Below are positions 5,517-57,879 of a stretch of DNA of 64,000 nucleotides, one piece after another (positions within the stretch are counted from its first letter, which is position 1; each line of letters begins with the position of its first letter). The DNA is taken from NCBI GenBank assembly GCA_023269615.1, contig JAHFSY010000007.1:62001-126000 (forward strand), given 5' to 3'. Made by a program: the position numbers and the translations under genes. Under the pieces are notes generated by a model. That model was not told where the DNA came from. It did not search any database and worked only from the letters and a program-made list of their open reading frames with translations. The stretch is from Verrucomicrobiota bacterium. GTDB lineage: Bacteria > Verrucomicrobiota > Verrucomicrobiia > JABWAM01.

Positions 5517-5585
5517 GTCTCTCGCAAAGACGCGAAGGCGCAAAGACAGAGTTTTCACGCAGCGCGGAGCGCTGCGTGAAAAGAC
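5517..5585. repeat. 8-base-period repeat with 14-bp hairpin
   Basis: CGCAAAGA/CGCGAAGG/CGCAAAGA units are followed by a perfect hairpin: TTTTCACGCAGCGC, a GGA loop, and the exact inverse (5552-5582). It is a partial relative of the larger composite elements near 23.3, 47.6 and 55.8 kb and fills the gap upstream of rsmI. Confidence 0.75.
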
Positions 5586-22042: not shown

Positions 22043-22071
22043 TGTAGGAGCCGCTGCCAGCGGCTCCTACA
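22043..22071. repeat. REP-like palindrome, copy 3 (single hairpin)
   Basis: TGTAGGAGCCGCT, a GCC loop and the exact inverse AGCGGCTCCTACA give a 13-bp perfect stem. It is the minimal unit of the REP-like family and lies between mrp and the sufT-like gene. It could act as a processing or termination signal there. Confidence 0.85.
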
Positions 22072-23149: not shown

Positions 23150-23197
23150 GGCAAAGTGTGAAATGTCACATGTTTGGGCTGAGAGAACAAGGGCGGA

Positions 23198-23421
23198 GAG
23201 GTTTCGCGCAACCCGCGCTACGCCGTAGGCTTCGGCGAGGTGAGAGACGCCAAGGCGCAAAGGCCCTGATTCCCTGCCACGCCAATCCGATCGTCACAGT
23301 GGTGACGATCGGATTGGCGTGGCAGACGGCCATCTCGAAATCTGCGTCCATCGGCGGAATCTGCGGAGAAATGCGGGACAAAGGGCTTTGCGCCTTGGCG
23401 TCTTTGCGAGAGGCTCTCCGA
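23198..23421. repeat. composite repeat with 24-bp perfect hairpin (copy 1)
   Basis: Outer 8-base units (GACGCCAAGGCGCAAAGG at left, CTTTGCGCCTTGGCG at right) flank a hairpin with 24-bp perfect arms (23274-23297 and 23302-23325, loop AGTG) and a TCTGCG 10-base tract (23339-23370). The arm starts CTGCCACGCCAATCC. The same order is seen at 47508-47716 and 55769-55998, with different arm sequences. Confidence 0.85.
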
Positions 23422-47501: not shown

Positions 47502-47507
47502 GGAAGA

Positions 47508-47716
47508 GGTTCACGCAAAGACGCCAAGTCGCAAAGTTTTAGCCACTGAGGGGAAACCCTTGATCCCAACCCCGCCATTTTCTTCGAAGGCTACCTTCGA
47601 AGAAAATGGTGGGGTTGAATGCGGTTCTAAAATCTGCGTCTGTCTGCGTTAATCTGTGGAGGAATCCCGGGACCGAGGGACCTTTGCGCCTTTGCGTCTT
47701 TGCGCGAAACTCTCCG
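47508..47716. repeat. composite repeat with long hairpin (copy 2)
   Basis: ACGCAAAG/ACGCCAAG/TCGCAAAG at left and CTTTGCGC/CTTTGCGT/CTTTGCGC at right flank a hairpin with 23-24-bp arms and one G-T pair (47567-47590 and 47594-47617, loop CTA), then a TCTGCGTCTG/TCTGCGTTAA/TCTGTGG tract (47632-47660). It fills the OsmC-isomerase gap. Confidence 0.85.
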
Positions 47717-55743: not shown

Positions 55744-55768
55744 GACGCGAGGCGGTGGCAGCGGCGGA

Positions 55769-55998
55769 GAGTCTCACGCAAAGACGCAAAGACGCAAAGA
55801 CTGCCCTTGATCCCAACCGCGCCATTTTGGTTGAAAGCATGGCTTTCAATCAAAATGGCGCGGTTAGATGCCGTTCTGAAATCTGCGTCTGTCTGCGTTA
55901 ATCTGCGGAGAAAATCCGACGGGTGACAGGGCTTGGCGCCTTTGCGTCTCTCGCCTCGCCAAAGCCTACGGCGTAGCGCGGGTTGCGTGAAACTCTCC
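55769..55998. repeat. composite repeat with long hairpin (copy 3)
   Basis: ACGCAAAG units at left (55777-55800) and GCGCCTTTGCGTCTC at right flank a hairpin with 24-bp arms and one G-T pair (55815-55838 and 55842-55865, loop ATG), then TCTGCGTCTG/TCTGCGTTAA/TCTGCGGAGA (55882-55911). It fills the gap between two minus-strand genes. Confidence 0.85.
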
Positions 55999-57741: not shown

Positions 57742-57879
57742 TTCTCCGCAGATTTCGCAGACAGACGCAGATTCCGAGGTAGGGAGCGCTCGCCGAGCGC
57801 GCCATCGTTCTCCATCGAAATCACACATTCACTTTCCACGAATCACCTTTACGGCGCGCTCGGCGATCGCGCCCTACCT
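57742..57879. repeat. 10-base tract and imperfect inverted repeat after glyA
   Basis: A reverse TCTGCG-type tract (57744-57775) is followed by AGGTAGGGAGCGCTCGCC at left and its inverse, GGCGATCGCGCCCTACCT, at right (arms 57778-57803 and 57853-57879). The right arm ends at the stop codon of the fused glyA gene, so it may serve as its terminator. Confidence 0.7.

Follow-up and report, generated by a model that had tools for sequence, protein, structure and literature searches.

Palindromic composite elements of a Verrucomicrobiota genome: candidate gene-less derivatives of a GxxExxY-associated mobile element

Three composite elements in the window

The window, a stretch of 64,000 nucleotides from a Verrucomicrobiota genome, contains three composite elements, all of them intergenic (Mrp-like ATPase/class-V aminotransferase, OsmC-like/unknown, and SBF-like/ABC transporter). 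The original prediction had described in them a common succession of 8-base units, leader, hairpin, TCTGCG tract and inverted 8-base units, and this order was found at all three places. Arms of 23-24 bp and loops of 3-4 bases had been announced, and the hairpins indeed contain 24, 23 and 23 Watson-Crick pairs in copies 1, 2 and 3, with a loop of 4 nt in copy 1 and of 3 nt in the two others. The hairpin of copy 1 is perfect, and the single G-T pair predicted for two of the copies is present in copies 2 and 3. No other hairpin in the window is as long, and in Markov-shuffled windows the maximum is 11-14 bp. As for the 8-base units, the CGCAAAGACGCAAAG unit was matched 12 times in the window with at most 2 mismatches, far above the 0.27 matches expected; the arms are nevertheless not all continuous, as a 34-bp GC-rich insert splits one CGCAAAG arm, on the left in copy 1 and on the right in copy 3. 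The 10-base TCTGCG tract is at its place in each copy, but it is degenerate in copy 1 (TCTGCGTCCATCGGCG). Past the TCTGCG tract lies GGGANCAAGGG, an inverted partner of the leader CCCTTGATCCC that the original prediction had not described, and the composite is therefore built of nested inverted repeats throughout.

In copy 1, the outer left arm (23195..23262) consists of GGAGAGGTTTCGCGCAA, the 34-bp GC-rich insert (about 23211-23245) and then GACGCCAAGGCGCAAAG units. It is followed by the leader GCCCTGATTCCC, a variant of GCCCTTGATCCC (23263..23274), the 24-bp hairpin with loop AGTG (23274..23325), a T-module that reads as a degenerate AAATCTGCGTCNNTCTGCG...TCTGCGG (23338..23366), and the inverted partner of the leader, GCGGGACAAAGGGC (23373..23386), all on the + strand, and the outer right arm CTTTGCGCCTTGGCGTCTTTGCGAGAGGCTCTCC lies on the − strand (23386..23419). 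Copy 2 starts with an outer left arm of 8-bp CGCAAAGN units (47504..47536) and continues with the leader CCCTTGATCCC (47557..47567), the hairpin with its 23 Watson-Crick pairs, one G-T and loop CTA (47567..47617), the T-module AAATCTGCGTCTGTCTGCGTTAATCTGTGG (47629..47659) and the inverted partner CCCGGGACCGAGGGA (47667..47681), again on the + strand, before the outer right arm CTTTGCGCCTTTGCGTCTTTGCGCGAAACTCTCC on the − strand (47682..47715). In copy 3, the outer left arm GGAGAGTCTCACGCAAAGACGCAAAGACGCAAAG (55766..55799), the leader CCCTTGATCCC (55804..55814), the hairpin of 23 Watson-Crick pairs and one G-T with loop ATG (55815..55865) and the T-module AAATCTGCGTCTGTCTGCGTTAATCTGCGGAGA (55878..55910) occupy the + strand, and the outer right arm, split by the 34-bp CTCGCCTCGCCAAAGCCTACGGCGTAGCGCGGGT insert, the − strand (55932..55998).

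The CTCGCCTCGCCAAAGCCTACGGCGTAGCGCGGGT insert is found in the window at 23211-23245 and 55949-55983. It interrupts one C-module arm in several copies, and a longer version with an additional insert is present at loci L004 and L012. A further element of the same system, in which CGCAAAG units precede another core hairpin (TTTTCACGCAGCGCG/CGCTGCGTGAAAA), was detected at 5523..5582 (+ strand), as well as a lone T-module, TCTGCGTCTGTCTGCG, at 57756..57771 (− strand). A separate 13-bp palindrome at 22043-22071 (TGTAGGAGCCGCTG/CAGCGGCTCCTACA) probably belongs to another repeat family.

A repeat family and its gene-bearing relative

Gathering all copies of the genome had been proposed as a check. A covariance model built on 42 copies retrieved about 63 distinct hairpins of this type (class A) from the 4.48 Mb, 131-contig assembly, and none from 27 relatives when 150 candidates were scored per genome. 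No exact pattern match was found among GTDB contigs. The T-module gave 62 matches at 3 mismatches or fewer, against 0 for the reversed control, and about 118 C-module arms, which form the outer arrays, were counted, with 0 control matches. When many copies were compared, the canonical order was GGAGAGTTTCGCGCAAAG(NCGCAAAG)n - GCCCTTGATCCC - AACCNCGCCATT hairpin AATGGCGNGGTT, followed by GAATGCCGTTCAG - AAATCTGCGTCNNTCTGCGTTAATCTGCGGAGAAA - NCGGGANCAAGGGC - (CTTTGCGN)nCTTTGCGCGAAACTCTCC. The element, of about 200 bp with tandem-unit terminal arrays, is thus a nest of outer arrays, leader with inverted partner, and hairpin, the T-module being placed between the hairpin and the inverted leader. 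A C-module was present upstream in 60 of the 63 copies and downstream in 45, the leader in 49 and the inverted leader in 33, while the start of the T-module was kept in 40. The same modules also enclose other cores (TTTTCACGCAGCGCG, GGTCGCTTCACGCATCGCAGC and others), and the CGCAAAGN arrays of 8-bp units on the outside behave as terminal repeats.

A linked gene had also been asked for, and one family, GxxExxY, was found to share its outer arrays with the hairpin elements. Seven GxxExxY genes are present in the genome. At C33:6702-7245, a 127-aa GxxExxY ORF lies directly within an inverted pair of C-modules, and the ends are the same as those of the window elements, which means that within one genome hairpin elements and a gene-bearing element have their terminal repeats in common. 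At C18:71031 (L118), inverted T-modules and CCCTTGATCCC leaders stand on both sides of another GxxExxY gene; immediately upstream of this gene there is one more inverted repeat, of about 29 bp, and downstream a short TCTGCG-containing palindrome. Arrays of CACGGAT, CACGGAG and ACAGGAT surround other GxxExxY genes of the genome.

Neither in profile score nor in motif does the partner gene stand out from the GxxExxY / PDDEXK_3 family (TIGR04256, PF13366): it passes the TIGR04256 / PF13366 cut-off, with PF13366 at about 1e-38 to 1e-41, and has the E, D, ExK and Q residues. All of 41 proteins have E27, D67, E77 and K79, and at least 90% have Q91. The PD-(D/E)XK nuclease signature of the C33 protein is complete. 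In the predicted model (pLDDT 95) the protein has the PD-(D/E)XK fold; its best structural match is the Cas4-like SSO0001 (Z 9.4), the Holliday-junction resolvase Hjc (Z 7.0) being among the others; such middling Z values establish the fold and say nothing of the function. A sequence search of solved structures returned no relative of the protein. In open-access papers, no text was found that links the GxxExxY family to terminal repeats or mobility; two mention GxxExxY, on other topics judging by their abstracts, where no repeats are reported. None contained the repeat sequences, shorter repeat strings gave unrelated titles among the matches listed, and no function was found there for GxxExxY or four-helix-bundle genes.

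Inverted arrays in other genomes and phyla

Among loci from 18 genomes, inverted arrays with a score of at least 14 flanked 23 of 28 GxxExxY genes and 18 of 30 genes for four-helix-bundle proteins (TIGR02436). As a control, flanks were mismatched within the pooled set of GxxExxY and four-helix-bundle loci, and 48 of the 3306 pairs reached the same score. A motif scan of GTDB contigs confirmed at least 562 GxxExxY relatives across bacteria. Relatives of the C33 protein, 48-75% identical among the matches listed, came from Desulfobacteraceae, Pirellula, Cyanobacteria, Flavobacterium, Acidobacteria, Chloroflexi, Sphingomonas and others, and the arrangement of gene and repeats recurs in Cyanobacteria, Bacteroidota, Planctomycetes, Sphingomonas and others. 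Across phyla, 55 of the 78 GxxExxY genes among the matches listed were enclosed by inverted arrays, often CGCAAAG-like. The corresponding control was inflated (10.8%) because arrays are alike between loci, and the 48/3306 control is the cleaner one. No GxxExxY relative was found in phages, and eight were found in plasmids.

The length of the repeated unit follows the gene. It was 7 bp for 16 of the 18 four-helix-bundle arrays with a measurable period; for GxxExxY arrays it was 8 bp in 33 cases, 9 bp in 14, 10-11 bp in a few, scored as 5 bp in two and never 7 bp, and 25 arrays had no clear period. This is as expected if each protein reads or shapes its own repeats. The four-helix-bundle arrangement is a parallel system with its own unit length. 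Its S23-like genes (L122-L151, for example G000:C124:16162) are placed in inverted arrays of 7-bp units such as TAGGCTGTAGGCTG, AACGCTCAACGCTC and AATGAAGAATGAAG. A large hairpin beside the arrays was considered as a possible general trait of GxxExxY elements and rejected, only 8 of 211 flanks having one. In two Nostocales, Dolichospermum (L231) and Nostoc (L234), GxxExxY elements occupy what seems to be the same chromosomal site; their arrays differ (CGCAGAG and CGCAAAG), yet left matches right in each.

Occupied and empty sites, whose comparison had also been proposed at the outset, were found in Sphingomonas, for a gene-bearing relative rather than for the hairpin copies. A GxxExxY element lies there between two genes which, from the flanks, we take to be fabD and fabG. 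It is present in about 25 of the 59 matching Sphingomonas genomes, while in the rest the short intergenic region is uninterrupted or is filled otherwise. One deletion derivative at this place (L371) has kept both arrays and lost most of the GxxExxY gene, which shows how a gene-less copy can arise. Over 17 orthologous sites, the mean difference between left and right arrays was 1.3 nt when both came from one site and 4.1 when they came from different sites, and 0 of 20,000 permutations reached the observed concordance, related species not being independent in this test. Left and right terminal arrays evolve in concert, like the hairpin arms. One Sphingomonas genome (G028) contains about 14 gene-less nested elements (L306-L320), typically with CGCGAAG arrays outside and CGCGGAG inside; the nesting order seems largely fixed. 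At one of these gene-less sites, some relatives retain the left array next to other content and others are without it, and an insertion polymorphism is suggested.

Pairing of the arms and candidate mobility

The pairing of the hairpins had been predicted to persist while their sequence changes, either as in a structural RNA or as in a cassette copied with a new arm, and a covariation test had been proposed. Over 42 copies, changes on both sides were found at 21 of the 23 pairs, and the arms covary massively: Watson-Crick cells amount to 97.9%, against 64.7% in shuffles where the 3' letters were redealt (shuffle maximum 67.8%). About 240 cells are double-changed, and single-side intermediates are very few. 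Entirely new arms, with leader and tail retained, were found at C77:18101, at C43:62583 and in window copy 1, which fits the copied cassette. Loop sequences vary, and sister copies often have them in opposite orientation, the clearest case being C57:56093 (TGGG) and C57:58563 (CCCA), whose arms are identical. Differing loops among near-identical arms were reverse complements in 8 cases, complements in 0 and reverses in 0 (shuffle mean 3.2, p 0.002, for pairs that are not independent); taken over all copies regardless of arm similarity, the effect was not significant (p 0.66), and loop inversion is supportive only.

In the reading that we prefer, and to which we give a probability of about 0.6, the composites are palindromic, non-autonomous derivatives of GxxExxY-associated mobile elements, a class so far undescribed. 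The data suggest a kind of mobile DNA that has not been described and that is spread over many bacterial phyla. Each composite would be a short gene-less mobile element, made of nested inverted repeats, a perfect hairpin and the TCTGCG module, and its outer arrays are the terminal repeats of a gene-bearing element whose sole gene encodes GxxExxY. The putative GxxExxY nuclease, which we infer to be the mobilising enzyme, may recognise the arrays or the folded hairpin and move the elements in trans. Arm pairing would persist if, as the DNA is synthesised, each new arm takes its partner as template, possibly by fold-back or by a switch of template between strands, whether the element is inserting or being replicated; such copying would also invert the loop.

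These properties recall MITEs, the non-autonomous DNA transposons, which are likewise short, gene-less and multi-copy, with terminal inverted repeats common to a gene-bearing element, and for which an origin by deletion would have its counterpart in L371. In contrast to MITEs, the termini here are arrays of 7-11-bp units, several nested layers surround a perfect hairpin, and the partner is a gene for a predicted PD-(D/E)XK nuclease, which belongs to no known transposase family. In addition, no target-site duplication was detected among 15 copies with both ends, where no excess over mismatched flank pairs was seen. For this reason the elements are said to work like MITEs and are not filed as classical MITEs.

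It may also be that the palindromes are immobile now, and are old duplicates whose arms are kept identical by template switching at replication and whose arrays are made uniform by recombination among the copies. A switch of template in DNA synthesis is described as leaving simultaneous arm changes and inverted loops, and can produce and preserve perfect hairpins (PMC8794818). Template switching could maintain the pairing alone, without mobility. Moreover, the fabD-fabG element is persistent across many species, with arrays changing in concert; a selfish element would be expected to turn over faster. Quasipalindrome correction by template switching (PMC8794818, PMC8604942), which shares the compensatory changes and the inverted loops, is nevertheless a mutation process at fixed loci, whereas we deal with a dispersed repeat family with terminal arrays. 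Neither the presence of about 63 copies at 63 places with conserved boundaries nor the pattern of occupied and empty sites is explained by immobile palindromes, and we find this alternative improbable.

A little less probable still is that another enzyme spread the palindromes, for example a Y1/RAYT transposase acting on REP-like single-stranded hairpins, the GxxExxY linkage being a by-product of shared insertion sites. Two Y1_Tnp genes are present in the genome; REPs, or BIMEs, associated with RAYT are likewise high-copy intergenic palindromes, and the 34-bp insert of some arms may be a REP-like repeat. According to PMC3733652, GTAG repeats are abundant in the verrucomicrobium O. terrae and REPs measure 20-40 bp. 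This size is well below that of the elements described here, which have longer perfect stems and outer arrays. A GTAG or CGTC tag was found near the stem base in just 1 of the 63 class-A copies, neither Y1 locus has a C-module, T-module, leader or strong hairpin, and the same arrays surround GxxExxY genes in many phyla. The REP/RAYT explanation was rejected on the tag count and the two Y1_Tnp loci.

Selection on a transcribed hairpin, structural or regulatory, would also produce strong arm covariation, and the predicted hairpin is stable and, in the window, intergenic. A selected RNA hairpin would be expected to admit G-U and to exclude A-C, in the sense orientation only. With every copy oriented by its leader and tail, internal non-Watson-Crick pairs comprised 9 G-T, 9 A-C and 3 transversion mispairs, so that wobble is not preferred. 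The equal numbers of G-T and A-C, the scarcity of intermediates and the inverted loops are consistent with a copying of the arms from each other at the DNA level, one arm being templated by the other, and not with selection as RNA. No Rfam family matched the window at gathering score, the sub-threshold matches being miRNA hairpins only, and the class-A hairpins are confined to 1 of the 28 genomes searched, at 150 candidates scored per genome. The structural RNA proposed in the original prediction was thus rejected, mainly on the symmetry of the mispairs and the Rfam result, and we judge it very unlikely.

That the GxxExxY and four-helix-bundle genes are cargo, the arrays being recognised by an unrelated host or phage enzyme, would suit an array architecture that holds two unrelated protein families without target-site duplication, and is the least credible alternative. 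Against it stands the dependence of unit length on the gene family, with 7 bp in the case of four-helix bundles and, in the case of GxxExxY, 8-9 bp in most arrays and a maximum of 11.

Returning to GxxExxY-associated mobility, the occurrence of four-helix-bundle genes in the same type of repeat means that the GxxExxY gene might be cargo or a regulator. Coxiella 23S rRNA intervening sequences have an S23 (four-helix-bundle) ORF between long-stem terminal inverted repeats and were proposed to be selfish; they sit in rRNA genes and are excised from the RNA by RNase III (PMC4990558). The small ORF within terminal inverted repeats has its parallel in the TIGR02436 genes between inverted arrays, whereas the elements described here lie between protein genes and their arms behave as DNA. 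On a broader and decidedly tentative reading, GxxExxY and, in parallel, four-helix-bundle (S23-like) proteins would define widespread minimal mobile elements, with one small gene between inverted arrays, the protein determining how long the units are (four-helix bundle 7 bp, GxxExxY 8-11 bp). These would move and be rewritten via a hairpin or fold-back DNA intermediate, their ends changing together, and would spin off gene-less hairpins with new arms.

The arms are a natural case of perfect covariation that apparently comes from DNA copying, and a warning for covariation-based RNA discovery. The tie between GxxExxY genes and arrays, with a unit length that follows the gene, gives these widespread genes a concrete and testable role and, if mobility were shown, they would belong to a class of mobile elements that does without a known transposase.
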